From a virus, in IMG/VR virus record IMGVR_UViG_3300031236_000041, positions 1 to 24,058 of that record: a stretch of DNA of 24,058 nucleotides. One strand, given 5' to 3'. The position numbers and the translations under genes were made by a program. Under the pieces are notes generated by a model. The model saw only the letters and a program-made list of their open reading frames with translations, made no database searches and was not told the origin of the DNA. The stretch's first letter is position 1. Every line of letters starts with the position of its first letter. Below are positions 3,518 through 24,058 of this stretch, piece after piece.

Positions 3518-3518
3518 C

Positions 3519-5007: not shown

Positions 5008-5014
5008 GCCTCCC

Positions 5015-6408: not shown

Positions 6409-6686
6409 CATATCGTTTTCTGGGCACGCAGACATTGATTCTCGGCCCCAATCCACTGAGGCTCAACCGCTTCGGACAGAAGTTCGAGCTGACGGAAGAG
6501 CAGCTCCCGGACGTCCTCCACGAGCGAGGCATCGCGGCCATTCCGGAAGAGGCTTTCTGCGAGATCTTTCCCGAAGGGAAAGTGGATCCCAAAGCGAAGG
6601 ACTTCGCCGATCAGAAAAGCCGCGCCCTCGCCGTGCTATTCGAGCTGAGGAAGCCCCCGAGCGACACACCAAAGGAGGCCGTGTAA
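6405..6686 (+). CDS. Small hypothetical tail-region protein
   Basis: This 93-residue protein overlaps the previous gene by four bases and ends four bases before the tail tube gene. The N-terminus MTYRFLGTQTLILGPNPLRL suggests two short beta strands. The middle QKFELTEEQLPDVLHERGIA and IPEEAFCEIF looks helical, and the last third is charged and rich in Lys/Pro. No domain is recognised. Its tight coupling to terminator-like and tail tube genes suggests a structural or assembly role in the tail. AAAGGAG at its own 3' end serves as the ribosome-binding site of the tail tube gene. Confidence 0.7.
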   Translation: MTYRFLGTQTLILGPNPLRLNRFGQKFELTEEQLPDVLHERGIAAIPEEAFCEIFPEGKVDPKAKDFADQKSRALAVLFELRKPPSDTPKEAV

Positions 6687-6690
6687 CAAA

Positions 6691-7707
6691 ATGGCCAATC
6701 AACCGTACACTAGACTCCAGTTAAGTTTCCCGGTGATCGAGGCGACCTACGGCATCGTGCCGGCGTCGCATCCCGTGAATGCCGACTGTTGCCTGATCAC
6801 GACCCTTGCGGACGACGCGAAAAACCCCGAAATCGTACGTCCCGACAAGACCGGAAGCTTCGGTGAAATCCTGGGCATCATGGGCCGGCGGTCTGCCACC
6901 TGGTCCGCCACGCTCTCTGCCGCCGGAAACGGCGTTAGGGGCGTCAAGCCGGATTGCGACGAATACCTGCAGCTCGCTTTCGGCCAGGCCTCCGTCGCGG
7001 TCGCCAGCACCTCGGTGACTTACACGATGAACGAGACGGGCTGCCCCACGGCCTCGATCTTCGACTACAACGCGCCGGGCACGGTCACCCAGTTCGTCGC
7101 TTTGGGCTGTCTCTGCAGCAAGTTCGGCGCCTCGTTCGGCGGCGACGTTCCCATGCTCACCTTCTCCGGCGAGTGCATGTGGGTATATGACACCATTCAG
7201 GCCGCGGATGCCAATACCGACGCTACCGCCAAGGGCGGCCTGGCCACTTTCCCGGCGCAGCCCACCGCTCCCGTAACCAACGGCGCGCCGCCGCAAGGCT
7301 TCTCTGGCGTCATCTCGCTCGATGGCAACACCTTCACCACGCTGCGCACCGGCTCGATCGACATGACCCTGGCCCGCGAGCTGGAGAAGGACGGCTTCAG
7401 TGTGTACCCGATCGCGCCCGGCGCCGGATTGTACTCCGTCTCTTTCTCGTGCGAACTCTATGACGATGACTCGACCATCCTGAACACTCTCAAAACGGCT
7501 GCGACGGATCCGCTGGGCCCGGTCATCACCATCAGTTTCCAGATCGGCACGATCGCCGGCAACATCTGGACTTACACGCTGAAAAATTGCCGCGTCGTCA
7601 TGCCTACCTATGACAAACAGCAGGCCCGCCGGACAGTGAAGTTCACTGGCAAGGCGCATGACACCTCGATAGGCTCGGCGGACGCTTTCGTTCTAGTGAT
7701 CACTTAG
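6691..7707 (+). CDS. Major tail tube protein (gpV-like role)
   Basis: This is a 338-residue, beta-rich protein with an AAAGGAG site about 12 bases upstream. Features fitting tail tube proteins are an early DKTGSFGEILGIMGRRSATW block, repeated beta-hairpins, GSIDMTLARELEKDGFSVYP in the second half, and a C-terminal TVKFTGKAHDTSIGSADAFV stretch like the last strands of tube subunits. It would polymerise as hexameric rings around the tape measure protein. The position before the G/GT chaperones and tape measure is that of lambda gene V. It is larger than gpV (246), so it may carry an extra surface domain. The stop TAG is overlapped by the stop of an opposite-strand gene. Confidence 0.75.
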   Translation: MANQPYTRLQLSFPVIEATYGIVPASHPVNADCCLITTLADDAKNPEIVRPDKTGSFGEILGIMGRRSATWSATLSAAGNGVRGVKPDCDEYLQLAFGQASVAVASTSVTYTMNETGCPTASIFDYNAPGTVTQFVALGCLCSKFGASFGGDVPMLTFSGECMWVYDTIQAADANTDATAKGGLATFPAQPTAPVTNGAPPQGFSGVISLDGNTFTTLRTGSIDMTLARELEKDGFSVYPIAPGAGLYSVSFSCELYDDDSTILNTLKTAATDPLGPVITISFQIGTIAGNIWTYTLKNCRVVMPTYDKQQARRTVKFTGKAHDTSIGSADAFVLVIT

Positions 7708-7922
7708 GCCGGGGTGTTCGTTACCGCTGCCGGCGTTTTAGCTGGCGCGGCTGGAATGCTGGCCAAAATCAGATCCAGCTTTTGCTCGATCACATCTAGC
7801 CGTTTGCTGAGTTGGGCGTACAACTGAAGCCCCCAGTCCATCTTGGGCGGAAAGCCGGGCGAAGCCGGATCCGGCAGTTGTGCCGCGATGGTTTCTGCCG
7901 CCGCGATTTTTTCAGGTGCCAC
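7704..7922 (-). CDS. Opposite-strand 72-residue coiled-coil protein, possible moron
   Basis: This is the only credible minus-strand gene. It reads from GTG at 7922, directly after an in-frame TAG, to TAA at 7706-7704, and overlaps the tail tube stop by four bases. The plus strand has no coding frame here. Codon use is protein-like and varied, giving AAAETIAAQLPDPASPGF, then an amphipathic helix WGLQLYAQLSKRLDVIEQKL with heptad spacing, then an Ala/Pro-rich tail. No family is recognised; the helix could mediate self-association. There is no clear Shine-Dalgarno site upstream of the GTG, which lowers confidence. A gene running against a late operon is the usual look of a phage moron expressed from its own promoter in the lysogen. 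Confidence 0.5.
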   Translation of the reverse strand: MAPEKIAAAETIAAQLPDPASPGFPPKMDWGLQLYAQLSKRLDVIEQKLDLILASIPAAPAKTPAAVTNTPA

Positions 7923-7948
7923 TTTTAAAGTCTACCAGCCGCAACAAT

Positions 7949-7990
7949 ATGAACTACGAATCTGGAAAAACAATAACGAAAGGGATTCCA
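7949..7990 (+). pseudogene. Remnant duplicate start of the downstream G-like gene
   Basis: The sequence from 7947 to 7971 matches 8344-8368 at 21 of 25 bases. It encodes MNYESGKTITKGIP, against MNYESRKTFTSTSIP at the real gene start at 8346. After about 14 codons the resemblance ends and the frame runs out of phase over the next gene. There is no Shine-Dalgarno site before this ATG. It looks like a partial duplication left when the gene at 7992 was inserted between the two copies. The Shine-Dalgarno site of the gene at 7992 lies within it. Confidence 0.6.
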
Positions 7991-7991
7991 A

Positions 7992-8339
7992 ATGAGTTGG
8001 CTTACGAATTTATTCAAAGACGTCGGGGGTTTCTTTACCTCCTCGAAAGCAGAAGCAGCCGAGAAAGAAATAGTGGCGCTGGTGCCCGCGGCGTTAAGCA
8101 TCGTACAGGACATCAACGCCATAGCGCCCAGTCGGACGCTGGCAGAAATCAACACGGTGGCCACTAAGTACGGTGTTCCGGCCATCACCGCGGTCGCCAA
8201 CGATCCAACCAGCACCGGCAACGTGCTGTTGAATCTTGCGACCACAATTCTCCAGAAGAACCACGCGCCTGCGGCCTCCGTGTCTCTGCTGAACACGACG
8301 GTCCAACTGGCAGTGATCGCTGCGCAGACTTCAGCGTAA
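7992..8339 (+). CDS. Small hypothetical protein inserted before the tail chaperone gene
   Basis: The protein has 115 residues. The start is preceded by GAAAGGGA seven bases upstream. The N-terminus MSWLTNLFKDVGGFFTSS is an amphipathic helix. It is followed by EKEIVALVPAALSIVQDINA, a segment LAEINTVATKYGVPAITAVA, and a C-terminal hydrophobic helix VSLLNTTVQLAVIAAQ. The whole is helical and Ala-rich with no cysteines and no convincing membrane-spanning segment. I recognise no family. It ends six bases before the G-like gene, so it is transcribed with it. Flanking by two copies of the G-like start suggests it was acquired as an extra cassette. A membrane-active or holin-like role cannot be excluded but is not supported. 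Confidence 0.7.
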   Translation: MSWLTNLFKDVGGFFTSSKAEAAEKEIVALVPAALSIVQDINAIAPSRTLAEINTVATKYGVPAITAVANDPTSTGNVLLNLATTILQKNHAPAASVSLLNTTVQLAVIAAQTSA

Positions 8340-8345
8340 ACCGAT

Positions 8346-8978
8346 ATGAATTACGAGTCGCGAAAAACGTTCACATCCACGTCCATACCCGAAGTTTCGT
8401 TCACGTTGCTCAAAATCAATGTGAAACGGAGACTCGCCTTCAATCTCCTGATGGCCAAAAAGTTCGAAGCGCTGCGTGAGATCTACAAGCGCCGCAAGCC
8501 GTTCGATGAGGCATATCAATCGGCCCTGAAAGCTGCGCGCGAGAAAGCGCGGCCGGAGATCGAGGCGCTGATGGAAGCGGAAAGCATCAGCCGCGAAGAG
8601 GCCACCAAACGCTCCAAGGTGACGCTGGAGTTTCCGGAAGACCAGCTCGAGCAGATCATGGCCATCACCCAGGAAGCGCAGGAATACGATGCCCGCGAAT
8701 GCACGCCGGACATGGTGAAGTTCTTCCTGCAGAAGATCGAAGGCCTGGAGATCGACGGCGCGCCGGCCACGGCTGACTCACTGATCGATGCTGGGCCCGA
8801 CGATCTGTATCAAGAAATAGCGCAAGGCATCTCCGGCCAGCTCGGCCTGACGAGTACGGAGAAGGAAAATTTGGAATTAGCTGGCACTTCAGAGCCTCCG
8901 GTGGGTGGACCAGCGAATCCGGAGCCGGCGGACTCACTTACGACTGTGGAGACTGTCGCGAGCGCGGCGACGACCTGA
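8346..8978 (+). CDS. Tail assembly chaperone, gpG-like (zero-frame product)
   Basis: This 210-residue protein follows the tail tube and precedes the tape measure, the place of lambda gpG. The N-terminus SFTLLKINVKRRLAFNLLMA is followed by strongly helical, charged segments (RRKPFDEAYQSALKAAREKA; EDQLEQIMAITQEAQEYDAR). The C-terminus is a Pro/Ala/Thr-rich, low-complexity tail ending VETVASAATT. Near its end, AAATTTG at 8867-8873 lets some ribosomes shift to the -1 frame and make a longer GT fusion. In lambda, G and GT wrap the tape measure and recruit tube subunits and are absent from the virion. Sequence similarity to gpG is not evident; the call rests on position, frameshift and composition. 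Confidence 0.7.
   Translation: MNYESRKTFTSTSIPEVSFTLLKINVKRRLAFNLLMAKKFEALREIYKRRKPFDEAYQSALKAAREKARPEIEALMEAESISREEATKRSKVTLEFPEDQLEQIMAITQEAQEYDARECTPDMVKFFLQKIEGLEIDGAPATADSLIDAGPDDLYQEIAQGISGQLGLTSTEKENLELAGTSEPPVGGPANPEPADSLTTVETVASAATT
8867..8873 (+). promoter_or_regulatory. -1 programmed frameshift heptamer AAATTTG
   Basis: In the zero frame the bases read A AAT TTG, a perfect X XXY YYZ heptamer. Slipping back one base pairs the two tRNAs with AAA and TTT and moves the ribosome into the open T frame. G-to-GT frameshifts of this direction are conserved in long-tailed phages. Confidence 0.7.
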
Positions 8979-9316
8979 CCCGCAACTGCCGCAAGTTTCA
9001 CGCCGCGGACATGGATCCCGATCGCGGCCGCTGCTGGGAAGCGCGCTACACGGCCGGCAGCGGAAAGCACCAGGTGGAGTACTTCGTCGATTGCGAAACG
9101 ACGGAGTGCCCGGTCGGCTTAATTTCCATAGACACCCTCCAGCTCATGCAGACAGTGGACTCCGCGCGTGTAGTTCGCGAAGGCGGCGGAGGTGTGCTTT
9201 ATGGCGCGGACTCTTCGAAGTGGCCGTGCTGGTATGCGGACGCTGTCGAGGTAGTGGAACTTGCGCGCAAAGCGGAACACTACGCCGGCATGAAAGCGAT
9301 CAATTCGCGGGAGTGA
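8873..9316 (+). CDS. T domain of GT fusion, reached by -1 frameshift
   Basis: After the slip at 8867-8873, the -1 frame continues for 147 residues beginning GISWHFRASGGWTSESGAGG and then LTYDCGDCRERGDDLTRNC, to TGA 9314-9316. Joined to 176 residues of the G-like part, it gives a fusion of about 323 residues. The segment before the first ATG in this frame (9011) is clearly coding: it has a Cys-rich CxxC...C pattern (CGDC, NC, CW) that continues smoothly into ECPVG and WPCWYADAVEVVELARKAEH. The ATG at 9011 has no ribosome-binding site, so independent translation is unlikely. The six or more cysteines suggest metal or disulfide stabilisation. In lambda, the T domain binds the tail tube protein. 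Confidence 0.7.
   Translation, partial: GISWHFRASGGWTSESGAGGLTYDCGDCRERGDDLTRNCRKFHAADMDPDRGRCWEARYTAGSGKHQVEYFVDCETTECPVGLISIDTLQLMQTVDSARVVREGGGGVLYGADSSKWPCWYADAVEVVELARKAEHYAGMKAINSRE
8880..8914 (+). promoter_or_regulatory. Stem-loop stimulating the frameshift
   Basis: GCTGGCAC (8880-8887) can pair with GTG (8905-8907) and CCAGC (8910-8914), with a two-base bulge (GA). The stem starts six bases after the slippery heptamer, the spacing usual for a frameshift-stimulating structure. Folding was judged by eye, with no energy calculation. Confidence 0.5.
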
Positions 9317-9317
9317 A

Positions 9318-9785
9318 ATGGCAGGCTTCAAAATCACGATCAAGCGCTCCGTCCGGATCAACGCCCCGGTGGCCACACGCGCCCAGCGTCTCGCATTAGG
9401 TCAGGTCGTGTTGCAGACGGTCAGGGGCCGGATCAAATCCGCCGTGGACGCGAACGACGCGCCCGCCAAACCCCTCAGCGCCATCCGTCCGCGGCACGGG
9501 GGCACATCCTACGCTGTGCAGAAACAGATGCGGACCGGCGGCCGCGCGGTGCGTGACTGGACCCTGACGGGAGCGCTGCTAGGTTCTCTGCGAGTGAGCA
9601 TCGCCACACAGAAGAGAATTGTCATCTCTCCCGCTGAGGACCAACGCGGCAAGATGGCGGGCAATCAGGCGCTCTGCGAAATGTTTGCATTCAGCCCCAA
9701 AGACGAGGCCGTAACTCAAGAGGCCATGGATCATCTAGTCCAGCGGATGATTTCCCTCATCGTAGCCAACTCAATCAGCAGATAG
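9318..9785 (+). CDS. Minor tail / tail completion protein, gpZ or HK97 gp10-like
   Basis: The protein has 155 residues. The N-terminal part is basic (FKITIKRSVRINAPVATRAQ). A long helix RLALGQVVLQTVRGRIKSAV leads to the motif DWTLTGALLGSLRVSIATQK, then RIVISPAEDQRGKMAGNQAL, CEMFAFSPKD and a C-terminal helix. The combination of helix, DWTxTGxLLxSL strand and FGFSPKD-like turn is common in gp10/gpZ and virion morphogenesis proteins at the head-tail neck. In lambda, Z lies before U; here the gene sits between the GT chaperone and tape measure, so the order is rearranged. The start is two bases after the upstream stop. The exact family needs a profile search. Confidence 0.55.
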   Translation: MAGFKITIKRSVRINAPVATRAQRLALGQVVLQTVRGRIKSAVDANDAPAKPLSAIRPRHGGTSYAVQKQMRTGGRAVRDWTLTGALLGSLRVSIATQKRIVISPAEDQRGKMAGNQALCEMFAFSPKDEAVTQEAMDHLVQRMISLIVANSISR

Positions 9786-9788
9786 GTC

Positions 9789-12776
9789 ATGGGAAAGAAC
9801 ACCACCACTTTAGAACTGACGCTCGAAGACGGGCAGGTCGTAGGCGCGACGACTCGTGTCAACGCTGCGTTGAAATCGATCGAAGACAACTCCAAGCACC
9901 TCGGCGAGAATACCGGCTTCGACAAGTTTGCGGAAGGCGTTAAATCGCTCATCGAAGATCCGCTCGGGTCGGCCGGCAACATGGCCGAGAAGTTCGTGAG
10001 CAGCATGGGGCCGGTGGGAGTGTCGCTGGCAGCCGGCGTCGGGGCATTTGCTGCGTTCGGTATGGCCGCCTTTGAAGTCACCGAGAAACTGGGCGCGCTG
10101 GCCCTGCAATATCAAAACCTGTCCACTCGCACGGGCATCAGCACGGCTGACGTCGGAGGCTTCGCATTTGCGGCCAAGATGACCGGGAACGACGTCTCGA
10201 TATTTGAGACGATCATGCGCCGGCTCTCGCAGGGCATGGACGAGAACTCGGAAAAGGGCAAGGCTTGCCGCGAGGAACTGGCGCGCATGGGTATCACCGT
10301 CCGGGACATCCACGGCGTGCTGATGCCTACCGCGGATATCTTCAATCAGATATCGGTGGCGCTGAACAAGATGGGCTCGGCCGCCGAGCAAGACGCGGCC
10401 ATGATGAATATCGCCGGGCGGGCCGGAGTAGAGGCTCTACCGACGATGCTGGAGCTTGCTAAGAACCTGCAGATGGCCAGGGATCTCGGACTGTCTCCCA
10501 CCAAGGCCGAGATAGAAGAGTGGAAGGGCTACCACGAGCAGCTCACCATAGCGGCCGCTCAATGGGATGCGATATGGCGCAAGATCGAAGGGGCCACGGC
10601 CGCCACGTTCATGTTTTGGTTCGCCTATAGCACAGGCTCTGGTGGCCCAACAGGGAAAAAGCCAGTCGCGCCCACCCCAATACCGGGGATGCAATATGCG
10701 GGCCTGCTGGAGATGCAGCCCACCATATCCCTGGCGGATCAGTATCGCATTCAGGCCAATGATCGTGCGGTAGCCGCGCTCAAGATTGGCAGCCCCGAAC
10801 AGCAGTTGTCAGAAGCAAAGAAGAATCTGACTGAGCTTCAAGGCAGCCTGAAAACCGGTGTGCTGCCGGAAGTAAATACGAAGACTGAGGCGGACATTAC
10901 CACCGCCAAAGCGGACGTGGCGCGCCTGCAGGCGCAGGTGGATTCACTGAAGAAAGGCGAAGCCGACGCCAAGAGCCGCGCGGCACAGCTTGCCAAAGAT
11001 CAAGCCACCACGATGGCCATCATCGATCACCGCGGCATCATGGCGGGCCTTGCGTTATCCGGGCAGCGAGTTGATGAGATCGTTCCTTACGACAAAGAGG
11101 GTACGGCGGCCTCGCAGCACGGCATGACCGAGAACGTGGCCGTGTTTCGCAAGGCGCTGGAGCAAAAGGACAAGCAGTTAGAGGCGGAAATCGCAGAACT
11201 GAAGAAAGCCATCTCCGAAGGCGATATAGCCTCGCGTGGAGAAATCGAAAAGCAGGCCAGCGGCATCGAAACGGGAGCCGGACAGCAGGTGCAGCTCGCC
11301 GGCGCCCGGCATCAGTTGGCTGGCGTTGGCAAACAAGATGACGGCGAAGTGGCGCTGGCGCAGCAGGAGTTGGCCATCCGCATGAAAGCCCTCGATAACG
11401 AATTGGCCATCAAAGCGGCGCGCGCCGATCTTTTTGACATGGTCAAAGAGCAGGATGACTATGAGAATCGGGCGCAGGCGGCGCAGTTCGATTTGCAATT
11501 GAAGATCCTGGATCTAAAGAAGCAGGTCCTGGAACAAGATCAGAAGGACGCGGACACATTCGGCAAGCTGGTGGCGGAATTCTCGAATGCCGCGCAAACA
11601 GGTGGCCACCGTGGGATCTCGCAGTTCTTCCGCGGCCAGGCGCACGGCCTGGAAGACACGATGATTGGCAACGTGGCCTCCACTGCCTTTAAGAACTTCG
11701 GCAGCAACATAGTTCCGCACATGCCAGAAGGTCCTCTAGGGGATCTGTTTAAGGGGACGCCATTCTCTCCCAAGTCGTCCGACTCGAAGATGCTGCAGGA
11801 CGCCACCCTGGAGAATACCCTGGCCACCCGCGATAACTCGGCCGCAATACGAGCAATGGCGATGTCCCGATCGGGAGGCGGAGGCGCCTTCGTGCCTGGT
11901 GGTGGCGGCGGCCTCGATCTCACCAGCGGCGCATGGGGCAGCGTGGGAAGCGTGCCCGGCTCAGGATCCGGCGCGGACATGGGCGACCCGTTCAACATCA
12001 CCGGGGGCGTTGGCGCGGGCATGCCCGGTATCGGAGATGCCGGAGGCGGCACAGCCGTATTCTCGCCGGCAGCTCTGGTCAAGCTGGGCGCTTCTCCCAC
12101 CGTCGCAGCTCAACTCAGCGGAATGATGGCCTTGTCCGCCAAGCTGAAAAGCGTAAGCTCCAGCATGGGCGGCTTCATGACCGGCGTGGGGCAGGGAATG
12201 TCGGATCCGGTCGGGATGCTCTTCGGCTCAACCGGTCCGGACGGAGGCTATGAGGGCTCACTCACTACCGCACAGGGCGTGGGCGCCGGAGTAGGCATTG
12301 CCGGCGCGGGCATGGGCACTTACATGGGCATCTCGCAGATGGCCAAAGGCGGCGCGCACAATATTACGGCCGGCATCGGAACCACACTGATGTCCGTGGC
12401 TCCTCTCACCGGGCCGGCGGCGCCGTTCGTCGAAGCGGCTGGAATGGTGGCATCGGTGGTCAGTATGATCCTGGGCGATCCCAGGGCGCAGCGCGGCACA
12501 CAAATCACCAACTGGACGGCGCAGAACGCTTACACCGGGCCGGATCCGGTTTCGTATGCGAGGAACATGTCCGGGGAAACCGTGGGCAGCGATATGTTCG
12601 GGAACAGCAGGCAGGTCGGAAATCAGACGACCGTCACAATAAATGCGATGGACTCCGAGAGCTTTGGGACTTACCTGCAGAACCGCCCAACCCAGTTGGA
12701 CAACGGGCTGTATAACCTGATCCAGAATGGCAGTAAGTCCGTGCCGGCGCTCCGCCAGCAGCTCCTGGGTGGCTAA
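9789..12776 (+). CDS. Tape measure protein (gpH-like)
   Basis: At 995 residues this is one of the longest genes and follows the GT chaperone as expected. Tape measure protein sets tail length and is ejected with the DNA; at 1.5 angstrom per residue it predicts a tail near 150 nm. A hydrophobic Gly/Ala segment lies at 73-95 (GPVGVSLAAGVGAFAAFGMA), followed by a helical region to about 260 with LSTRTGISTADVGGFAFAAK. Coiled-coil stretches lie near 337-400, 450-490 and 525-592. A Gly-rich hinge occupies about 693-755, and further hydrophobic segments lie near 830-893. The C-terminus VTINAMDSESFGTYLQN is the usual tape-measure ending. The stop TAA touches the next start GTG. Confidence 0.9.
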   Translation: MGKNTTTLELTLEDGQVVGATTRVNAALKSIEDNSKHLGENTGFDKFAEGVKSLIEDPLGSAGNMAEKFVSSMGPVGVSLAAGVGAFAAFGMAAFEVTEKLGALALQYQNLSTRTGISTADVGGFAFAAKMTGNDVSIFETIMRRLSQGMDENSEKGKACREELARMGITVRDIHGVLMPTADIFNQISVALNKMGSAAEQDAAMMNIAGRAGVEALPTMLELAKNLQMARDLGLSPTKAEIEEWKGYHEQLTIAAAQWDAIWRKIEGATAATFMFWFAYSTGSGGPTGKKPVAPTPIPGMQYAGLLEMQPTISLADQYRIQANDRAVAALKIGSPEQQLSEAKKNLTELQGSLKTGVLPEVNTKTEADITTAKADVARLQAQVDSLKKGEADAKSRAAQLAKDQATTMAIIDHRGIMAGLALSGQRVDEIVPYDKEGTAASQHGMTENVAVFRKALEQKDKQLEAEIAELKKAISEGDIASRGEIEKQASGIETGAGQQVQLAGARHQLAGVGKQDDGEVALAQQELAIRMKALDNELAIKAARADLFDMVKEQDDYENRAQAAQFDLQLKILDLKKQVLEQDQKDADTFGKLVAEFSNAAQTGGHRGISQFFRGQAHGLEDTMIGNVASTAFKNFGSNIVPHMPEGPLGDLFKGTPFSPKSSDSKMLQDATLENTLATRDNSAAIRAMAMSRSGGGGAFVPGGGGGLDLTSGAWGSVGSVPGSGSGADMGDPFNITGGVGAGMPGIGDAGGGTAVFSPAALVKLGASPTVAAQLSGMMALSAKLKSVSSSMGGFMTGVGQGMSDPVGMLFGSTGPDGGYEGSLTTAQGVGAGVGIAGAGMGTYMGISQMAKGGAHNITAGIGTTLMSVAPLTGPAAPFVEAAGMVASVVSMILGDPRAQRGTQITNWTAQNAYTGPDPVSYARNMSGETVGSDMFGNSRQVGNQTTVTINAMDSESFGTYLQNRPTQLDNGLYNLIQNGSKSVPALRQQLLGG

Positions 12777-13529
12777 GTGGCCGGCGCATTCCCGAACATC
12801 AGCGGCGCCTATCCGGTCCGTTTCCCTTATACCCATACGCTGCTGATCCGCTCTTCGTGCATGAGTTTCTGGAGCGGCACAAGCCAGCGGTATGCCATCA
12901 CCGGCCTGCTGAATTCGTTCAAGTGGAACTATCGGCGGATCAGTTACACCGATCTGCAAACGCTCGAAACATTCTGGACCGCGCAGAAAGGCGAATACGA
13001 CTCCACCTGGTCGATCTCGCTGCTCGATCCGAGCACGATGGCGATCCGCTCTTATGCCGGCATGGCATTCGACCAGGACATCTTCGGCTATACCGAATCT
13101 CCGCCCCAATGGTTCGCGCTCGGCTTGGATGCCGTGCAGACGGTCTCGGAAGCGGTCACGGTCGCCCCGAACACGACCTATCCGACCATCAACGGCGGCG
13201 TGCTGGTGCAGATTCCGTTCGGCACCGCGCCTTCGTTCAAGACGCTCAAGAACGATCTGGACTCCGGCCTGCGGATATCGTATTACGCCTGGACCGCCCC
13301 GCTGACGAAATGGCAACTGAGCTACCCGGCCATCACCAACGCCGAGGTGCAGACTCTGGTCAAATTCTATCTGGCCAATGGCGGACCGGTGAATCCGTTC
13401 TCGTTCTCCGATCCAAACACCAGCGTCGTCCACCCGCTTTGTTACTTCGGAGCGGACGGGATTCAGCTTACGCGCATCTCGACGAACCTGAACAGCGTCG
13501 CGTTGTCGATAGAAGAGTACGCGGCTTGA
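12777..13529 (+). CDS. Distal tail / minor tail protein, DUF2460-like, with internal duplication
   Basis: This 250-residue protein starts with GTG directly at the tape-measure stop. Two related segments are visible. One starts at residue 49 (KWNYRRISYTDLQTLETFW, then SISLLDPST). The other starts at residue 178 (KWQLSYPAITNAEVQTLVKF, then PFSFSDPNT). Each is a strand, a helix around QTL, then an (S/F)-strand with DP(S/N)T. The second continues into IQLTRISTNLNSVALSIEEY. This is the layout of DUF2460 and related distal-tail proteins that form the ring between tail tube and tip, equivalent to lambda gpM. The duplicated half could give a pseudo-symmetric ring. An octamer palindrome follows the stop by two bases. 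Confidence 0.65.
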   Translation: MAGAFPNISGAYPVRFPYTHTLLIRSSCMSFWSGTSQRYAITGLLNSFKWNYRRISYTDLQTLETFWTAQKGEYDSTWSISLLDPSTMAIRSYAGMAFDQDIFGYTESPPQWFALGLDAVQTVSEAVTVAPNTTYPTINGGVLVQIPFGTAPSFKTLKNDLDSGLRISYYAWTAPLTKWQLSYPAITNAEVQTLVKFYLANGGPVNPFSFSDPNTSVVHPLCYFGADGIQLTRISTNLNSVALSIEEYAA

Positions 13530-13531
13530 AG

Positions 13532-13627
13532 TGAGCGGGCGAGGGGGCGAGCGGGCGAAACGGCGAAAGTGCAGCCGTACAGTGCAGATTTGTCGCCCCC
13601 TCGCCCCCTCTCCCCTTCGCCCGCTCA
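13532..13627. repeat. Octamer-built palindromic element, copy 2
   Basis: The left arm TGA + GCGGGCGA, GGGGGCGA, GCGGGCGA (13532-13558) faces a right arm (13593-13627) that, read from its end, is TGA + GCGGGCGA, AGGGGAGA, GGGGGCGA, GGGGGCGA. The arms differ by one octamer. The loop (13559-13592) shares only scattered short matches with copy 1. Like copy 1, it sits just after a gene (two bases after the TGA stop) and is 96 bases long. It fills most of the 125-base gap before the tail hub gene. No promoter or U-tract is seen next to it. Confidence 0.85.
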
Positions 13628-13654
13628 GCCGCTAAGCACCCAGCTTTAACCGTC

Positions 13655-16600
13655 ATGAGCTTCACCATCGACCAAGCCAAGGAACTGGTCGCGTCCTACC
13701 TGCCGGTCGTTTTCTACGACTTCGTCTTCAATAACATTCCGGTGTGGACCGGAAGCGTCGCTTACTCCCTGAACTACCAGATCTACGACGGAACCAATGT
13801 CGAAATGGTGACTACGGCCGGAATCTCGGGGGGCTCTACGCCTGCCTGGAACCCCACCGTAGGCGGGTCGACCACGGATGGGAGTGTCGTCTGGAAGAAC
13901 CTGGGGCCCTCCACCAGCAGCGAATTACTGCATCTGTGCCGGCGGAACATCACCTGGCCAGGCAATCCCGTTTACGGCAGCACGGCTTATCTGGGCCGGG
14001 TCGAAAACGACGATATCGATGTGGTGGCCATGCTGGACGCGAGCGGCGTGGACATTCCGCCGCGGCTGACACTGTCGCTCGCCGACAGCGACAGCTATCT
14101 GTTCACCTACTATGAGCAGGGCGCCGGCCGCGGATTCCGCGGCGCCATCGTCACTGTCACTCTCGTTTTCTATGACGTGCTCGGCCAGCAATTCTCGACG
14201 GACTACGCGGTGCGCTATGTCGGCATCTGCGACGCCGCGGCGTTAGTCGACGATTCGCATTTGTCCGTTCGCACGAATTATAAAGCCCTCCTGCAGCAGA
14301 AGCAGCTTCCCTCCGCCTTGATCCAGCAATACTGCTGGAAAATGCAGCCGCAGACCACCACACAGTTCGCGCTGGCCACCCAGGACCACAACCAGTTCTG
14401 GTGGTGCGGCCTGACCGCGGCCGACTTTACCGGGCAGTGCGGCTACACGCGGTCCGGCTGCAGCGCCAACAACCACCTCGCCTATTTCGCCGGCGTAGAT
14501 TTCCAGGTCACCAATTCCATGGGCGGCCTGGGCGAGAACTATGTCTCCGGCGCCAAAGTCCAGCTCTATAACATCGGCGCCACGCTGATGTACGGGGATC
14601 CTTTCCCCATGATCTTCGGCGCCGGCTGGATCAACTGCCCGATCCTGAACATGCGTCAGGACGGCAACTACACCTATGTCGACGTGGCGCTGTGCATCGA
14701 TCAGATCGATACCGGGCTCACGGCGACCAGCGCCATGAAGGTGGTCTGCAACGGCGAGCTGATTCCCCCCGCCGGTTATTATCCTGTCGATCCGGTGACG
14801 CACGTCATCGTCGCCGGCGGATACGTGGCCCTTCCCGCGGGAAACGTAGGCTGGTGGAATTGGATTAACACGGGCACGCGCACGGGACCGACCGCCGCGC
14901 GTCCGGGAATGAGCGGACTGAGCACGCCCTACGGCAGTTGCGTGGTCATCCAGGTGACCGTCCCCAACAGCATCGCCGGGGGACCTTCCCTGCCTTCGGT
15001 GACGGTGCTCTATGCCGGGCCGGCCCTGCGCGTCTATAGCTCCCCGACCGCTTTTACTTATCAGTGGCCTTCGCAGATGTCGCTCGCCAACACCACGGGC
15101 GCCTTTACGGCCAACCCGGCATGGGTGCTGATGTACCTGCTGACTCTGGCCGGGTTCAATTACACCGATCTGGACATCCCGTCGTTCATTCAGGCCTCCA
15201 TCGATTGCGCGGAGCAGATCACGTACACCTCGCAATACAGCGGCTATGGGCTGACCCAGACGGTCACGTCGATCAGCGTCACGGCACAGGGCAGCGGCTA
15301 CAACAATGCGACCAACCTTTTCCCGCCTACGGTCAATATCACGGGAGGCGGCGGATCCGGAGCCACGGCCATCGCGCTGGTGAGTCCCAACGACAGTAAT
15401 GGGAACGGCGGCCATATCTACCAGGTGCAGGTCACCAATCCGGGATCGGGATACACCAGCGCGCCCTCAGTGACTTTTACGCCCGTGGGCGGCCATGGCA
15501 GCGGCGCCGCGGCGACTGCTTACATCGACTCGACGGCCATGCACCAGCGCTACATGTGCAACCTGATCGTGCCCAATCGCCGGCAGACCGGAGACATCCT
15601 CCAGGGCGTGCGGCGCACCATGATGGCGCTGCTGCAGCCCAACTCCGCGGGCCTGCTCGCGGTCCAGGTGAAAGGTCCGCTGGCCATCGAACAGCCGGGC
15701 CTCCCGGACGGAAGCAACTACACACTCCCCGTGGCCAGCGTGCTGCGCACCGGAGACCCCAGCAACGGCTATGTGGCGTACTCGTTCTCCGAAGACACCG
15801 CCATCTCGATCAAGGGCATCGAGCGCCCCATCACCGACACCGCCAACTGCCTGCAGTTCACTTTTCAGGATTCCGAGAACGTCTATGCCGCGACGTCCGT
15901 TTCGATTGTCGATTCGAACGATAGCGAGCGCATCGGCCAGCAGATCAACAAGTCCATCGTCTTTGACGGCTGCCCCACCAACGATCAGGCCAACCGGCTC
16001 GCGGTGATCACCAACAAGGAAACCCTGTATGGGAATCCGTTCGGAGACACCCGCGGCACAATGTGGATCCAGATCACCACTTCCATCCGTGCGCTGCGCA
16101 TCGGCCTGGGCGCGCTGATCTTCGTTTCCTGGGTCAAGCTGAATCTGGTCGATCAGTTATTCCGGGTCATGTCGGTCAAAGGGCCGGCCCGGGATGGCAC
16201 GGTGACTCTTATCGCGGCATGGCACGAAGACAACTGGTACGTGGACAGTCAGAGCCAGAATCCGGATCCGGGGTATTCGAATCCGATGCGGAGCCAGCTC
16301 TCCCGCGCGCCCAATGCGCTCTGTCCGAACACCGCTTTCCCGCGCGCCGGCGATCCGTATTTTCAGGTCTCGGACGGAACGTTCGCATTAGTGCCGGTTT
16401 GGACCCTGGGCCCCGATGGCAAATGGAACGGTCAAATCCAGTTCACTACGGCCGTCGGCGTCAATAACCCAGGCACGGCGCAACCTCCGCAGCCGGTGCT
16501 GCAAGCCGATGTCAATCTCACCGGCGGCAGTATCGGAGCGGGCCAGTATTACATCGCCGTCTGCGCCAAAGACTCGGCGGGAAATTACTCTTACCCGTCG

Positions 16601-17836
16601 CTGATGAGCATGGTGTATGTCCCGTCCGGGACCACCAACAGCATCAATCTGCCGATCCTGTGGTGGGACCAGACGGCCGGCACAGGCACGGTAGGCTATG
16701 CCATCTTCGCCGGCAACACGCCTTACCGTCTCTCTTATCAAGGCGACGGCACTCACAATACGGATGCTACCGGGATAGCTGCCTCGGTCACCCTGACCCG
16801 CTTCAATGTCTGCTCCTGGGGCGCGCCGGATCAGGAGCTCGACGGCATCTTATCGCAAGTCAAATACGTCACTCACTCGGGGATTGCCGGCGTGCAGGTG
16901 CAAGCGGTGGCCACCGGGCAGATCACCATCGGCACACCCGGCACGGCCTGGGGCTCGAATGCCCTGGCCGGCTACGAATGCTCGCTGCTGGCTAAATGGA
17001 ATGACACGGCGCTGCCGATTCTGACTTATGAGATCACGGCCTCGTCGACCGCCGGCGTCCTGACCGTCACGCCGGATCCCATGCTCGACAGCCTGGCCGT
17101 GGGCGATGTGATCGTGATCCGTTCGAAGCCGGTATGGTCGGGCGGCGGGCAGACGGCCACCGATGCCAACTGGGTGAATCCCTTCGGGCCGGCCGGCATG
17201 TTGCCCTCGCAGGAGATCGGCCAGGTGGCCCTGATCATCGCCGGGACCGGCCGGGGCCTGAAGAATGCCATTACCGCGGCGACATCCACCAGCCATACGT
17301 TCGGCCAGCCCTGGCTGGTGACACCGGACACGACTACCCGCTATATCGTGGTGGACGCGAACTGGCAGCCTTACGAGACCATTTCGCACGCCATCAATAA
17401 CGCCAGCGCGGCGACCTCCAAGACGCTGACGTTCCCGATCACCAATCTGGCCGGCAAGACTATCCTCATCGGGCTCGACAGCCTGGATGGCAATGACAAC
17501 GAGGGGCATGAGGCGCTCATGCCGGTCCGGGAGTTCTATGTATTCGGGCAGCCCGAGCAGGTGCTGATGCTGGGGCCCAGCGGATCCGGGACTTACACGG
17601 CATCCCCCAGCGACCAGAACATCCTGGTGGATACCTCGCTCATGTCCTGGGTCATCACGCTGCCGCCGCGGGCGGCCATGCTTTCACCGAGTATCACGGT
17701 GAAGAAGATCAGCGCGGATTCCAATACCCTGGACGTCGCCACGGCCGCGGGGGAAAACATCGAGGGCAACTCCGCCTATTCGCTGCCCTCGCAGTGGAAC
17801 TACCTCAAGATCAGCAGGGTCAACAACAATGTCTAG
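13655..17836 (+). CDS. Tail tip hub protein: gpL-like and gpJ-like regions fused
   Basis: At 1393 residues it appears to merge two lambda tail-tip proteins. Residues about 15-300 resemble gpL/DUF2163: a beta-rich [20 protein letters not shown] region followed by cysteines C227, C251, C262, C269 in CWKM, WCGL and QCGYTRSGC; gpL relatives bind an iron-sulfur cluster through C-terminal cysteines. A fibre-type insert [20 protein letters not shown] lies at 53-72. The gpJ-like part includes [20 protein letters not shown] and [20 protein letters not shown] (632-651). Between these two lies a pair of GSGY repeats (about 540-624). An Fn3-like stretch lies near 951-1032, and the end carries [16 protein letters not shown], a fibre-tip module. 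The hub holds the central fibre at the tail tip. Confidence 0.8.
15272..15526 (+). repeat. Two GSGY-type repeats inserted in the hub protein
   Basis: Two units, [20 protein letters not shown] followed by a GGGGSGATA turn, and [20 protein letters not shown] followed by [11 protein letters not shown], interrupt the gpJ-like region between QYSGYG and RYMCN. The unit (GSGY, PP or AP, strand, Gly-rich SGA.A turn) is a beta-solenoid type seen in phage fibres. A related unit occurs in the last gene at 23776-23880. Confidence 0.6.
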
Positions 17837-20744
17837 CCCGGACTGGTTCATCGTCGCCCAGAACAACGCCTCCGCGACTACGCTGCCCCTGACAGTCACT
17901 TATTCCTTGGGCTTGGGCAACGTCGGCACTGCCTACTCGGGCGCGTTTACCGCGGCCGGCGGCGTGGGGCCGTACACCTTCGCGATTACCAGCGGCTCCC
18001 TTCCGCCGGGCCTGTCGCTGACCACGTCCGGCGCGAATGCCGGCCAGATCTCCGGGACTCCCACGTCGGCCGCCACCGTCCCCTTCGTCTGCGTCGCCAC
18101 GGACTCGGCCTCCCACACTGCGACCATCACCGGCTCGATCACCATTCTGCCCACCGGCGTGGGGCCGTTCACGGATGTAGTGACCGGCCTGACGATCACC
18201 GTGGTTTACCGGGCAACCGGCAACGGCAATTATGAATTTCAGGCGCAGGGCTCTTACACCATCCCCGCCCCCGTACTCGCCGACACTTCCTTTTCGTTCG
18301 TCACCGCGGGCATCTACGGTCACGGGGTCAGCCCGGCAACGGGCCAGGGATGGCTGCTGGGCAATATCCCGCCACCCACGCACGCCTGGCTGGGCGCCTG
18401 GATCGACGTCCCGGCTGCTTCGACGCAGTATGACATTTACGCCTGGTGCGTGAGTATCTACAACACACAAAGCACCGCCAGCGCCACCGCCACCATCACC
18501 GTCTCAATCGCGTTGGCGATGGCCTACCTGTCGTCGGGTGGCGTGGTCGTGGTGGGCGCGGAGATCCCCAACGGCACTTTAACCGGGGTCCAGGTTCAAT
18601 ACAACCTGACCGCGGACGGCGGCGAAGGCTATGTGGTAGTCGGCGCCGGCACGGTCGCAGCCGATCCCCGCGTGGCCGCCGAGCAGCTCATTCTGTGCCC
18701 GATTGCGTTGATCGCCGGGTACAACGGCACCGTCGGCGGCACCATTCCGGCAAGCGGTTCGCCGTTGAATGTGTATGTCTCGCCCTACAGTATCGCCGGA
18801 TCGTGCACGGTGGCTTCCGATGGCATCACGGTCACTGCAATCACCCCGGGCGTCGCTCCGGGCCTAGCCGGCAATTTCACCATTATCGCCGGCGTCATCT
18901 ATCAGGTCGCGAGCTGGGTGTCTGCATCGTCCGTCCTGCTCCTCGCCGGATCCGCGGCGCCTTCGGGAACGTCTAGTTGGTATTCCATCGAGTGCCGCTA
19001 TGGGATGTCACCCGGCGACATCATCCAGATCGACAACGAACAGTTCACTCTCGTAGGGCCTCAGGCCGGATATCTTCTCGACGAGGTTGTAGAGGTCGGC
19101 GGCACAGGAGTATCCGCGTGGGTGCTTGCCAGGATCACTGGGCAGACCTGGGTGTCGCACACTACCGGATCCGGGAAGCTCGCGACCGACGTATCGAGCG
19201 CGGCCGGAAATGTGGATGCCTATGCGGGGAGCATGCTGCCGGGCACGACGCAGTCTGTCAGCCCGCTTTATCCGATGGGCACTCCGACAGCCTACATCGC
19301 TTTTCTGGTGGCTGTCAGCACTCTGAATAAGCTGAATACCTGGCCCGTGTTCGGAGGCGCCGGGGCAACCCCGTATTACATCGTCGGAGCGATTGAAGCG
19401 CAGACTCCCGGAACCCTGTCGGCATCGCGGCTGGCCAGCACGGAGCTGGTCGGCTTCTCCGGCGGCAGCGGGTTTCCTCTGGGCCCGGGCAATCCGAACA
19501 GCGCCAATCTGGTTTTCAACGGCAATTTCAATGGCCTGCCATTGGGACAAAACTGGCTATTCGCTTTCGCCAGCGTGGTGGCCACCGGGGCCGCGCCGAC
19601 GCCCCACTCCGGTCTCTACGTTTGCGAGATGACGCCTCCAGGCGCTTCCGGCACCGGCTCTGTCCTGCAGGGCGAACTCCCCACGCAACCCATCCCATGC
19701 GAGCCAGGCGACGTGTATACGATGACCTGGTGGGTCACGAAGAACGGATCGCCGAACGGCACGCTGGTGGGGCGCATCAATTACTTTCTGAACGGCGCGT
19801 ACTCCGGATCGATGGTCAGCACGCCGACGATCACCACCGTAACCGCCTCCGCCTGGACGCAATACAACCTGACCGTCACCGTACCGGCGGGCTGTAATCA
19901 AATCGTTCCGACTCCGGCTGTCTGGACCGGAGGCACGACCGGATTTTATTACGTGGACGACGTGGTCCTGACGAAGGTCCCGGCGACCGCGGGCCCGGTC
20001 ACCGTCGACGCCTTGGGCAATCTCAACATTGGGGCCGCTTCGATCCTGCAGAGTCACATCGCCAACCTGGCTATCGGCAACGCTCAGTTGCAGGTGCTGG
20101 CCGTTCAGGCGGGCAACCTGGCTTCCGGCGCGGCGGCGAGTAACATCAACCTGGTCGCCAACAGCCTGAATGCGAATACGATCATCGCGCCGAATGCCGT
20201 CATCACCCAACTGATCGCAGGGACTGTAACGGCCTCTATCTCGTTCACCGCACCGACGATTGTTGCTAGCAAGGGCACCAGCCTGATCACCCTGAACAGC
20301 GGAGCGTTCGCGCTCGCGGTCTCTAATACGGCCACCGGCAACACCATAGACCTGACCAACGGCGAAGCCTATTGCAGCAGCAGCGGGGGCGGATTCTCAG
20401 AGAGCGCAACGCTGCAACCGGGTGATTGCACGGTCATAACAACTGAAACCAGCACCGGCGAATCCTGGACGTGCGAGATGGATGCAAGTTCAGGTTCGGC
20501 TCTGATCCAGGCATCGGAGAGCACCAGCAGCAATTCGGTCTCGCTGTCGGTTAGTTCGGCCGAAGCGGTGCTTCTCGTTTCCGGGAACGGCGGCAACTAC
20601 ATCAAGGCGCAAGCCACAAGCGCCGGATCGTGGATGGCAACCGTCTCTGATGCCCTGGATGCCAGCGCGCCACAAGGCTCGATCACTTACTACTCCGGCC
20701 ACTTCTATGCGAAGAATGCGAGCGGCTGGGTAGAGACACTTTGA
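17829..20744 (+). CDS. Tail fibre with Ig-like and carbohydrate-binding-like domains
   Basis: This 971-residue protein overlaps the hub gene by eight bases. Residues about 26-110 form a He_PIG-type Ig-like domain: [20 protein letters not shown] then [20 protein letters not shown] is its clear signature. Residues about 557-716 look like a CBM4/9 jelly roll: [19 protein letters not shown] at the start, [11 protein letters not shown] in the middle, and [12 protein letters not shown] at the end. The C-terminal third has [20 protein letters not shown] and short repeats of [20 protein letters not shown], like the C-terminal stalk of gpJ-type fibres. It probably binds host surface glycans as the central fibre or a companion to the hub. 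No catalytic motif is seen. It shares few features with database-defined fibres beyond these domains. Confidence 0.75.
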
Positions 20745-20769
20745 TCCGACAAACCAAAGGACTCACATT

Positions 20770-21186
20770 ATGATCTTCGCCCGCTCGCTCCTGATCGCCA
20801 CCCTCGCCTCACTCGCCTGCCTGCAGGCGGAAGACGTCCATTTCACCCTCGCCTTACTACCGCACGATTTCTGGCTATCCTCGATTCCCACTCTCGCGGT
20901 GGTTGCCCTGGTCCCACCGGGCGCGGATGAAATCACCGTGACGCTGGCGACTTCCGCGCTGGGCCAGCAGGCGGTAGTGACCAGACAGGCGGGCGAACTC
21001 TGCCGCATCAACCTGCTCCCTGGGCCGTTCAACGGAGGCCTCCAGGCCGCCTGCTTCCAGCCGTGGGCGCCGATCGATGCGCCGACCGTCGAGCCGGCTT
21101 TCGACTATGTGACGGTCGAGGTGCGGCGCGGGGCTGTCACCAGCTCGAAGAAAGTCACAGCGCCACAGCCGGGGAGTTATTACTGA
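20770..21186 (+). CDS. Small secreted hypothetical protein
   Basis: The protein has 138 residues with AAAGGA nine bases before the ATG. It starts with a textbook Sec signal peptide (MIFARSLLIATLASLACLQA, cleavage likely before ED at 21). The mature part has LLPHDFWLSSIPTLAVVALV and several short strands, with two cysteines (78 and 95) able to form a disulfide, and ends VTVEVRRGAVTSSKKVTAPQ. No lipobox, no catalytic motif and no known family are seen. The product should be periplasmic or extracellular. Between tail fibre genes it may be a fibre chaperone, a surface-modifying or exclusion factor, or a fibre accessory; the sequence does not decide. Its stop overlaps the next start by one base. 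Confidence 0.75.
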   Translation: MIFARSLLIATLASLACLQAEDVHFTLALLPHDFWLSSIPTLAVVALVPPGADEITVTLATSALGQQAVVTRQAGELCRINLLPGPFNGGLQAACFQPWAPIDAPTVEPAFDYVTVEVRRGAVTSSKKVTAPQPGSYY

Positions 21187-21410
21187 TGGCAAACGTCTAC
21201 ACGTTCACCGACGACGAGCGCGTCTGGGTCGCCGAAGCCCGCGCCGAATATGAGCGCCGCCTGATGGTCATTATCCAGATCCACAAGGTGCAAGGGAATC
21301 TGGGCCCCGCGCCGAACGGCAGCGGTATCGAGCCAGTGCCCACCCGCCCAGCTCCGCCGCTTCCCGACATTGAATTGCAACAACAGCCATCCAGAGTGAC
21401 GCGCGATTGA
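21186..21410 (+). CDS. Small hypothetical protein between tail fibre genes
   Basis: The chosen ATG at 21186 overlaps the previous stop (TGATG) and has GGGGAG eight bases upstream; upstream in-frame codons would overlap the secreted protein gene. The product has 74 residues: MANVYTFTDDERVWVAEARA followed by a charged helix EYERRLMVIIQIHKV, then a Pro-rich tail ending PSRVTRD. No signal peptide or membrane segment is seen and no family is recognised. Acidic N-terminal half and helix suggest a small cytoplasmic or virion accessory protein. Its coupling to a secreted protein upstream and a secreted tailspike downstream is worth noting. Confidence 0.65.
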   Translation: MANVYTFTDDERVWVAEARAEYERRLMVIIQIHKVQGNLGPAPNGSGIEPVPTRPAPPLPDIELQQQPSRVTRD

Positions 21411-21438
21411 AGTACCGCGAAGCCCCAAGAGGCTCATC

Positions 21439-24058
21439 ATGAAACGACTATTCATACTGCTCTTTTGTACAGTACCTCTCTTCGGTCAAACCACCACGGT
21501 CTCTCAGTCCGTATTAGGTCCGGATGGCCAGCCAGCCAACGGCCGGGTCTCCATCCAGATCTCCCAGGCCTGCCGCTCCTTCACCTCCTATGTCGGCATG
21601 AAGCCGATCAACGTCACCGTCTCAAACGGCGTCTTCAGCCAGGCCCTGGTCCCAAATGACTCCTGCGTTCCCTCCGGCACAAGCTATGCAGTCACCTGGC
21701 AATTGACCGGCGGAAACGGCTGGACCGAGACCTGGCTGGTTCCTACCTCCTCCATCCCGGTAACGGTCGATTCCGTCGTAACGCAGGTCGCACCAACGGC
21801 TTCGTATGTCATTCAGTGGGGACAGATGGGGCAGAACGGCGCCGCCATCGGAAACGCGCCGATCTGGAACGGAACGTCCTGGCTTCCAGGTGCGCCGACA
21901 TCCGCCGACTTAGTGCAGAACGTCTTCGGCCGAATCGGTCCGATCACCGCGCAAGCCGGGGATTACAACACTTCGCAAGTCACCGAGTCGCCGGGCGATC
22001 TCTACTTCACCAACGTGCGCGCGATCGCTGCTCTGGCAGGGCTGTACCAGACACCCATCATCGGCGCGCCGTCCACCTGGCCTGCATTTGCGACGGTGGC
22101 CACCACGGGCGCCTATGCCAGCCTCTCAGGCACGCCCACGATCCCGAGCACCACCACACAGATCGCGGAAGGCACGAATTTGTATTTCACGAATACGCGA
22201 GCGATCGCCGCGCTGGCCGGACTGTATCAGACTCCCATCATCGGATCGCCTGGTACCTGGCCTGCATTCGCGGCCGTGGCGACGTCCGGCGCATACTCCA
22301 GCTTGCTTGGCCTGCCTACGATCCCGAGCACGACGACGCAGATCGCTGAAGGCACTAATCTGTACTTCACGAACGTGCGGGCGATCGCGGCGCTGGCCGG
22401 ACTCTATCAGACGCCGATTGTCGGATCGCCTGGTACCTGGCCTGCATTCGCGGCCGTGGCGACTTCCGGCAGCTACACCGATCTTTTGAATCTCCCGACC
22501 ATTCCCAGCACGACATCGCAGATTTCCGAAGGTACGAATCTGTATTTCACCGCCCCGCGCGCCATCGCAGCCATGGCCGGACTGTACCAGGCACCGCTGG
22601 GCTTCACTCCAGTGAACGCTACCGCTGTGGGCGTGGCCAACGGTGTCGCGCCGCTCGACTTGAACGCGCTATTGCCAGTCGCCAACCTGCCCAATCCCAT
22701 CGTCACCGCTGGCGCCGGCGGAGTCACTCAAGGCTATCTCGTAGCGCGCGCCGTCACGAGCCCAGTCACTTACGTCGCCACCGGCGCGGGCGGCTGTGGC
22801 TCTGGCTTCGCGGCGGCGACTGTAGCGGCCAGCGCGACGTTTCAATTATTCTCGATGCCTGGCACGCTCATCTCTGGCGTGGCGGATAACACCATCACGG
22901 CGGGCGATGTTCTGATCGGCGGTTCAATAATTCCCGGCAGAGTGGCGGATAGCGGCTTCTCGGCGCGCGGCAGCGTGGGAAGCACCGTCTGCACCATTGG
23001 CATCGCTCAATCGAGCGCCGTGGCTGGCGGGACTGTGTCGGTGCTCTACGATGGCGCGGGCTCGTATGGCACCCTCGCGCAATACACCGCTCCGGGCACT
23101 GGCGCGGTGCTCGAAACCCAGGTCGCCAAGAACGCGCAGGCAATCAGCGTCAAAGACTACGGCGCCGTCGGCAATGACATTGCGGACGACACAGCGGCGT
23201 GGCTAGCGGCCGTTGCGGCCACACCACCCGGAGGCACCTTACTCGGCACCCCTGGAGCGATCTACGCCATCAAAACGCAGGCTGTTTATTCGGCGGGTGA
23301 CTCAACTCTGTGCAGCATCCCGCTGCCCAATACCATCCACATCGACCTGCAAGGGGCCACGGTAGACGCTACCCCGCTGCCCGCCAACACCGGCGGAGTC
23401 TTCTGCTACCTGCCCCAAATCACCGCGAATCACTACTACTACCAGCAGGCAGCTTATGCCGCCGCCAACATCAACCAGGGCGATACCACGGTCACTCTGG
23501 TCACTTCCGCGAACAGTTCCAACTTCGCGGTGGGCGACGTGGTCTACCTCGCCGGCGAAGCCACCGATTACAACGCGCGCGCCACCAATTTCGTGCAATA
23601 TATCTCGGGCGGGGTGCTCTCCCTGGCCTTCCCCACGGGCAAGAACTTCTGGCCGTTTCTCTCGGCTGTCAGCGGAGTCACCGGACTCACCGGCAGCTCG
23701 GGGACGTGTACTTTAACATTCACGACACCCACCGGCGGCAGCGCGGCGGTAGCCACCAGCCCCTACCCCTGGAGCACCTGGACCGTCACGGCCGGCGGAG
23801 CTGGCTATACGGTGGCATCCCCGCCGACTTCGGCAACCGCCAGCGCGCCATGCGGCGGAGGAACCGCAACGCTCACCAGCGTAATCTCGAGCCCCACCAT
23901 CTCCGACGTGCAAAGCGTCTCCGGGTTCGATTACTCCATCTCGAACGGTACGATCTTGCCGGGCCGGACCCAGGCCATCGCGTGGGAGCAAGGCGTGCGG
24001 TTCAAAGTCAGCCATCTGACCATCTACACCAACACTGCCGCGCACGAGCCCATCCAGG
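21439..24058 (+). CDS. Tailspike / tail fibre with signal peptide and pectate-lyase-type start (partial, 3' end missing)
   Basis: The frame is open from ATG 21439 (AAGAGG six bases upstream) to the window end, about 873 codons. Residues 1-16 are a likely signal peptide (MKRLFILLFCTVPLFG, then QTTT). Residues 20-115 form a beta-sandwich with GPDGQPANGRVSIQIS and a possible C45-C76 disulfide. VQNVFGRIGPITAQAGDYN (159-177) is a common tail-fibre motif and leads into tandem units of 60 residues with EGTNLYFTN, a trimeric-fibre type repeat. From about 571, VKDYGAVGNDIADDTAAW is the start of a Pectate_lyase_3 right-handed beta-helix, as in depolymerase tailspikes. A GAGY unit recurs at about 780-814. 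The active site, if any, is beyond the window. A fibre with a signal peptide is unusual. Confidence 0.8.
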   Translation, partial: MKRLFILLFCTVPLFGQTTTVSQSVLGPDGQPANGRVSIQISQACRSFTSYVGMKPINVTVSNGVFSQALVPNDSCVPSGTSYAVTWQLTGGNGWTETWLVPTSSIPVTVDSVVTQVAPTASYVIQWGQMGQNGAAIGNAPIWNGTSWLPGAPTSADLVQNVFGRIGPITAQAGDYNTSQVTESPGDLYFTNVRAIAALAGLYQTPIIGAPSTWPAFATVATTGAYASLSGTPTIPSTTTQIAEGTNLYFTNTRAIAALAGLYQTPIIGSPGTWPAFAAVATSGAYSSLLGLPTIPSTTTQIAEGTNLYFTNVRAIAALAGLYQTPIVGSPGTWPAFAAVATSGSYTDLLNLPTIPSTTSQISEGTNLYFTAPRAIAAMAGLYQAPLGFTPVNATAVGVANGVAPLDLNALLPVANLPNPIVTAGAGGVTQGYLVARAVTSPVTYVATGAGGCGSGFAAATVAASATFQLFSMPGTLISGVADNTITAGDVLIGGSIIPGRVADSGFSARGSVGSTVCTIGIAQSSAVAGGTVSVLYDGAGSYGTLAQYTAPGTGAVLETQVAKNAQAISVKDYGAVGNDIADDTAAWLAAVAATPPGGTLLGTPGAIYAIKTQAVYSAGDSTLCSIPLPNTIHIDLQGATVDATPLPANTGGVFCYLPQITANHYYYQQAAYAAANINQGDTTVTLVTSANSSNFAVGDVVYLAGEATDYNARATNFVQYISGGVLSLAFPTGKNFWPFLSAVSGVTGLTGSSGTCTLTFTTPTGGSAAVATSPYPWSTWTVTAGGAGYTVASPPTSATASAPCGGGTATLTSVISSPTISDVQSVSGFDYSISNGTILPGRTQAIAWEQGVRFKVSHLTIYTNTAAHEPIQ
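21976..22575 (+). repeat. 180-bp tandem repeats in tailspike gene
   Basis: Three full units (21976-22158, 22159-22338, 22339-22518) and a partial fourth repeat with a 180-base period, the first longer by one codon. Each encodes IAEGTNLYFTN, RAIAALAGLYQTPI, GTWPAFAAVATSG and LPTIPST. A segment of more than 40 bases is identical between units two and three, which suggests recent copying or conversion. Confidence 0.9.

Follow-up and report, generated by a model that had tools for sequence, protein, structure and literature searches.

Why should a tailspike-like protein, encoded among the late genes of a tailed phage, begin with a signal for export through the host Sec route, when the tailspikes and fibres of tailed phages are, to our knowledge, generally taken to be cytoplasmic proteins? 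The question is raised by the last gene of the window, i.e., the whole stretch of DNA analysed here, a 24,058-base IMG/VR virus fragment with tailed-phage late genes (Table 1). An earlier note on this DNA had pointed to a Sec-type start on the tailspike-like ORF; that start is real, and it is kept in homologues of other phages. We see about an even chance that the ORF encodes a late protein built of tailspike parts which is exported by Sec, cut by signal peptidase I, and then at work on glycans beyond the cytoplasm, either as an enzyme or as an adhesin.

Table 1. Positions and properties of features in the window and in the compared phage contigs
Feature	Position	Strand	Basis or remark
Lambda-type portal	187-1812		
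S49 protease	1922-3517		
Phage_cap_E capsid	3946-5007		
Putative tape measure	9789-12776		Size and position only; without Pfam match
DUF2460 protein	12777-13529		
Tail-tip protein	13655-17836	+	Signal-less; 73% identical in G004
971-aa tail-end protein	17829-20744	+	Signal-less; without Pfam or PHROG match
Second signal-bearing ORF, 138 aa	20770-21186	+	Starts MIFARSLLIATLASLACLQA, then EDV after the predicted cut; score 5.2; without known relatives
74-aa ORF	Between 20770-21186 and the fibre gene		
Shine-Dalgarno-like AAGAGG, just 5' of the fibre-gene ATG	21427-21432	+	Sequence
Fibre ORF	21439-24057	+	ATG start; 873 aa, still open where the contig ends
Sec signal peptide MKRLFILLFCTVPLFG	21439-21486	+	16 residues, predicted cut before Gln17; scores, conservation
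Mature N-terminal domain	21487-21891	+	Two conserved Cys, WTETW-x-VP motif; alignments
Tandem fibre repeats, EGTNLYFTN type	21961-22584	+	Sequence; relatives in ~80 phage fibres
Start of pectate-lyase-type tailspike domain	23143-24057	+	Runs into contig end; PF12708, PHROG, L085 alignment
GGCATGACTGAGCG-core repeats in G001	8681-8766, 19422-19501, 20925-21012		
GGCATGACTGAGCG-core repeats in G004	5355-5443, 9386-9440, 17683-17768, 51125-51213		
Signal-bearing genes of G004			Three consecutive; 674, 1504, 531 aa
Signal-bearing genes of G002			Three; 177, 867, 212 aa
Signal-bearing genes of G003			Three; 495, 249, 499 aa

The fibre gene sits in the tail module, behind the tape-measure and tail-tip genes and in synteny with the phage contig G004. 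Its AAGAGG is a usable ribosome-binding site, and the earlier note was right that no alternative start lies nearby, the two nearest in-frame starts after it being an ATG at codon 54 and a TTG at codon 89, with none before codon 54. The protein begins MKRLFILLFCTVPLFG, followed after the predicted cut by QTTT; three parts can be told apart, namely a short, positively charged n-region (MKR), the hydrophobic core, and a Gly-Gln junction with Leu at -3, such that n-, h-, and c-regions and a small -1 residue are all present by a crude Sec/signal-peptidase-I scorer that was written for this analysis and underlies all signal scores given here. The N-terminal domain that follows comprises 135 residues with Cys46 and Cys76, a further Cys10 lying within the signal; no Pfam or PHROG family matched it, and its predicted structure is of low confidence (pLDDT 47). 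The fibre repeats that the earlier note describes behind the N-terminus are indeed present, with the unit EGTNLYFTNxRAIAALAGLYQTPI spanning about aa 175-382. From about aa 534 onward, the protein matches PHROG families of tail and tailspike proteins (best E=1.3e-8), and the pectate-lyase-type region is 32% identical over 172 aa to the corresponding domain of the G004 homologue. That homologue scores above the cut-off for PF12708 (Pect-lyase_RHGA_epim; 42.3 bits vs 27), at profile positions 3-48 only, whereas the window protein reaches the first ~27 profile positions, below cut-off, before the contig ends.

The G004 homologue (L085) lies in IMGVR_UViG_3300031028_000001, a 53.5-kb contig with about 75-85% DNA identity to the window across most of positions 2-17634. 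It is full-length (1504 aa), 67% identical, carries collagen repeats, and starts MKRLFILLFCIVPLLA, then QTTT; at 14 of the 16 signal codons, it has the same or a similar residue as the window. Another homologue (L003), from a phage unrelated to the window (G002; IMGVR_UViG_3300048599_000866), is 25-27% identical and starts MKRLMLLVCLAAALASA, then QAHK. The N-domains of all three proteins contain two Cys each and share a TETW-x-VP motif, the second Cys being aligned throughout and the first being two columns off in L003. These two cysteines had been thought to suit export; they are conserved, but signal-less tail proteins of the same phage are also Cys-rich, and the argument is a weak one. Over the first 32 bases of the fibre gene (21439-21470), 31 match G004, silent sites included, against about 71% identity across the N-domain region; exchange, or selection on the mRNA start, may have kept the two gene starts nearly identical.

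With 1.4% of random peptides passing a score of 4.5 and 0.08% passing 7, the window signal on its own is moderate (4.7, attained by about 1% of random peptides) and the weakest of the set, which, together with its Leu at -3, counts against the main reading, whereas those of the homologues are strong (7.1 in L085, 8.6 in L003), and it is because of this conservation that we regard the window signal as secure. None of the 166 other called genes of the five contigs reaches 7, while four pass 4.5, some of these probably being spurious ORFs. The score of the window copy alone is what could be said for a chance hydrophobic start, a wrong start codon, or an assembly fault. Chance is ruled out by conservation in homologues from independent contigs and by signal-bearing neighbour genes, and a wrong start codon by the distance to codon 54, which leaves such an artefact scarcely credible. 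A lipoprotein signal was likewise rejected, as LLFC is not a lipobox and the homologues are cut before Gln in the prediction; so was a host gene misplaced in a phage contig, given that synteny with G004 runs from the portal region to the tail tip and that the fibre N-domain is common to both. Nor does the signal come with the repeat type: among testable fibres of other phages with EGTNLYFTN repeats, which otherwise begin in the manner of ordinary cytoplasmic fibres, 2 of 69 carry one (L003, L041), which rules it out as a general trait of this fibre class.

Homologues without the first 20 residues, which the earlier note had held would refute its proposal, came down to a single case (G001/L002), in which the signal and half of the N-domain have gone through a frame-breaking deletion, with seven bases only from the ATG to the first homologous codon. 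Because half of the N-domain is also missing and the frame is broken, we read this homologue as a gene in decay or the product of faulty assembly, and not as a clear case of a working form without a leader. On the upstream side, the broken gene adjoins two overlapping minus-strand ORFs (L002 3185-3747) that may form a toxin-antitoxin pair of the DUF5615/DUF433 type, which they resemble. Beyond the fibre gene and a segment at window 7738-7936, G001 and the window have little in common. This segment (~200 bases, 91% identical to G001 8780-8984, and 80% identical over 116 bases to G004 46801-46916) is overlapped by a minus-strand ORF at 7704-7922, and can be read as a small mobile or exchanged element. 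Dispersed intergenic repeats of ~85 bases with the core GGCATGACTGAGCG occur in G001 and G004, two otherwise different phages, and are possibly host repeats or exchange sites.

The fibre protein is one of a set and no isolated oddity. Close upstream of its gene lies the second signal-bearing ORF of the window, absent from the earlier note, and three such genes each are present in G004, in G002, and in the unrelated phage G003 (IMGVR_UViG_3300032893_000149). All nine signals of these three phages score >7 and all nine genes lie in late structural operons, while the portal, capsid, tape-measure, and tail-tip proteins have no signal. The phages concerned are few, the window, G002, G003, and G004 amounting to three lineages, two chosen for this feature. 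In the window, G004, and G002, the signal genes come last in the tail module; in G003, they fill the interval that separates the portal from the scaffold gene, which is not the usual place for fibres, and neighbouring genes there are a few bases apart or overlap by as little.

A gene that comes last in the tail module is also what would be expected if its product were an exported part of the virion, passing through Sec, folding and forming disulfides in the periplasm, and docking onto tails as the envelope breaks at lysis. The tailspike architecture with its PHROG tail/tailspike matches would agree with this, and among the homologues the N-domain is kept while stalks and β-helices are exchanged, as in receptor-binding proteins; this pattern is typical of virion-docked spikes and speaks against our main reading. 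However, every one of these phages has signal-less tail-end proteins besides, the G003 set is removed from the tail end, and the docking partner is only hypothetical, such that we consider a virion part, although the main rival of our reading, somewhat unlikely. In the window, the 971-aa tail-end protein is an alternative candidate for the virion fibre. Taken further, the idea would be that some tailed phages of Acidobacteriota finish their virions outside the cytoplasm, with receptor-binding spikes made as Sec precursors, matured in the periplasm, and attached late to tails; this wider proposal we deem unlikely.

The predicted cuts themselves bear on the anchor that had been offered as the alternative to export, i.e., a hydrophobic start left uncut and holding the protein to the tail tip, and on a like anchor in the host membrane. 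In another phage group (L143, L146, L147, L148), fibre-like proteins with an SRTTINNNF motif do carry N-terminal hydrophobic segments that look uncut, whereas in the set described here a short core leads into a typical c-region, and most members retain a small residue followed by Gln at the junction, across homologues and neighbours alike. An anchor is therefore disfavoured, and in our judgement very improbable. The positions concerned in L143 are 2708-3847 and 9549-13265; this phage also encodes a fibre-like protein of 1238 aa whose signal looks cleavable, and membrane-directed starts on fibres may recur.

Gln follows the cut in nine of the 11 signals of the window and G002-G004 by eye, and in eight by an automatic rule that looks for [AGS]Q close to the predicted cut, all cut positions being predicted. 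The Q-rule (Gln at +1) is presented in the literature as specific to Bacteroidetes (PMC5837995, PMC10653852), with no mention of Acidobacteria in PMC5837995. On 450 kb of the Granulicella tundricola plasmid pACIX901 (NC_015057.1, L109-L129), the same pattern is found in 34 of 58 putative signals (59%), as against 2 of 23 on 300 kb of a Caballeronia plasmid, and at the latter rate 8 of 11 would have a probability of about 4e-7. A Q-rule-like bias may thus extend beyond Bacteroidetes to Acidobacteriota. The two ends of G003, one of which carries a large serine recombinase, are parts of an NCS2 permease gene that lie adjacent with a 9-base overlap in pACIX901, and the joined 76-residue end peptide finds Granulicella as the best of 371 plasmid records (73%, next 61%). 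G003 is thus integrated in a gene closest to that of Granulicella, and among these phages it alone has direct evidence of its host, which these matches assign to the phylum Acidobacteriota and to no finer rank because the plasmid collection holds few members of it. For the window and G004, the signal style, a GC content of 0.60-0.62, and the Shine-Dalgarno-like sites point to an acidobacterial host, and the window phage, a soil phage, probably infects Acidobacteria.

Likeness to acidobacterial signals would equally be expected if the signal had been inherited from a captured host gene for a secreted protein and were now without phage function. The near-identical gene starts of the window and G004 hint at exchange, and the loss of the signal in G001 would fit as well; but well-formed signals recur on unrelated genes of unrelated phages, three in a row, and in late operons, and we hold such a relic to be improbable.

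The preferred reading, an exported late protein, would then run as follows. A late gene product in which a small N-domain with two Cys is followed by a fibre stalk and a β-helix directed at glycans would be made with a cleavable Sec signal and exported by its host, probably an acidobacterium; signal peptidase I would remove 16 residues and expose Gln; and the mature protein would work in the envelope, or outside the cell after further secretion or lysis, degrading or binding polysaccharide rather than joining a tail in the cytoplasm. Sec export and cutting by signal peptidase I are strongly suggested by the sequence, while action on glycans outside the cytoplasm is assumed by analogy with β-helix tailspikes, soluble depolymerases, and late phage proteins that are exported by Sec. 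The earlier note had suggested that the lysogen may export the protein: export is well supported by the conserved signal, the signal-peptidase-I-like site, and its recurrence, but its attribution to the lysogen finds no support as worded. Positions 20600-21700 contain no terminator and a single weak promoter-like match, and because the signal genes are packed in late operons, late lytic expression is likelier than a lysogenic promoter.

Among cultured phages, no relative was found for four of the signal-bearing proteins, and the N-domain had one weak match (E=0.2). Plasmids gave weak matches only, an acidobacterial plasmid gave none to the N-domain, and a genome-collection scan returned one spurious Vibrio match only. 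The leader DNA pattern recovered the known contig and antisense matches only, and scans with the tail-tip and 531-aa proteins the known contig only; the predicted structure of the 674-aa G004 protein is of low confidence (pLDDT 35). No precedent for signal-bearing tailspikes was found in open-licence PMC texts, so novelty is unproven.

Ultimately, the recurrence of host-style signals on tailspike-like genes leaves two readings, a release of glycan-acting proteins by these phages while infection is under way, or a completion of virions that takes place beyond the cytoplasm, and these soil phages probably send some fibre-like proteins out via the host secretion route. In soil-virus surveys, a pectate-lyase-like gene may be labelled as a tailspike or as an auxiliary metabolic gene, and the protein described here bears the marks of both.

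Known pectate-lyase-type tailspikes and depolymerases (PF12708, PHROG) are alike in fibre stalk, predicted β-helix, and placement in a tailed-phage late operon, and include soluble depolymerases that are released at lysis (PMC5380687), but the known ones are cytoplasmic and signal-less, whereas the present proteins have a two-Cys N-domain with a conserved Sec signal in front of it. Bacterial Sec-exported pectate lyases do combine a signal peptide with a pectate-lyase-type β-helix; the proteins described here differ from them in their fibre or collagen repeats and their phage structural operon. Endolysins of the Lys44 type are late phage proteins that use the Sec system of the host and have their signal cleaved (PMC6116005), and in this they are alike; those, however, are peptidoglycan hydrolases of the lysis system, and no peptidoglycan-hydrolase domain is among the Pfam or PHROG matches of the window fibre and its homologue. 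Phages of Porphyromonas gingivalis carry genes for Q-rule signal peptides: Gln is exposed at the predicted cut, as it is in secreted proteins of their host (PMC10367356). The exposed Gln is common to both cases, but the P. gingivalis genes are of unknown function and belong to Bacteroidetes phages, whereas those reported here are tailspike-like and lie in the late operons of probable acidobacterial phages.
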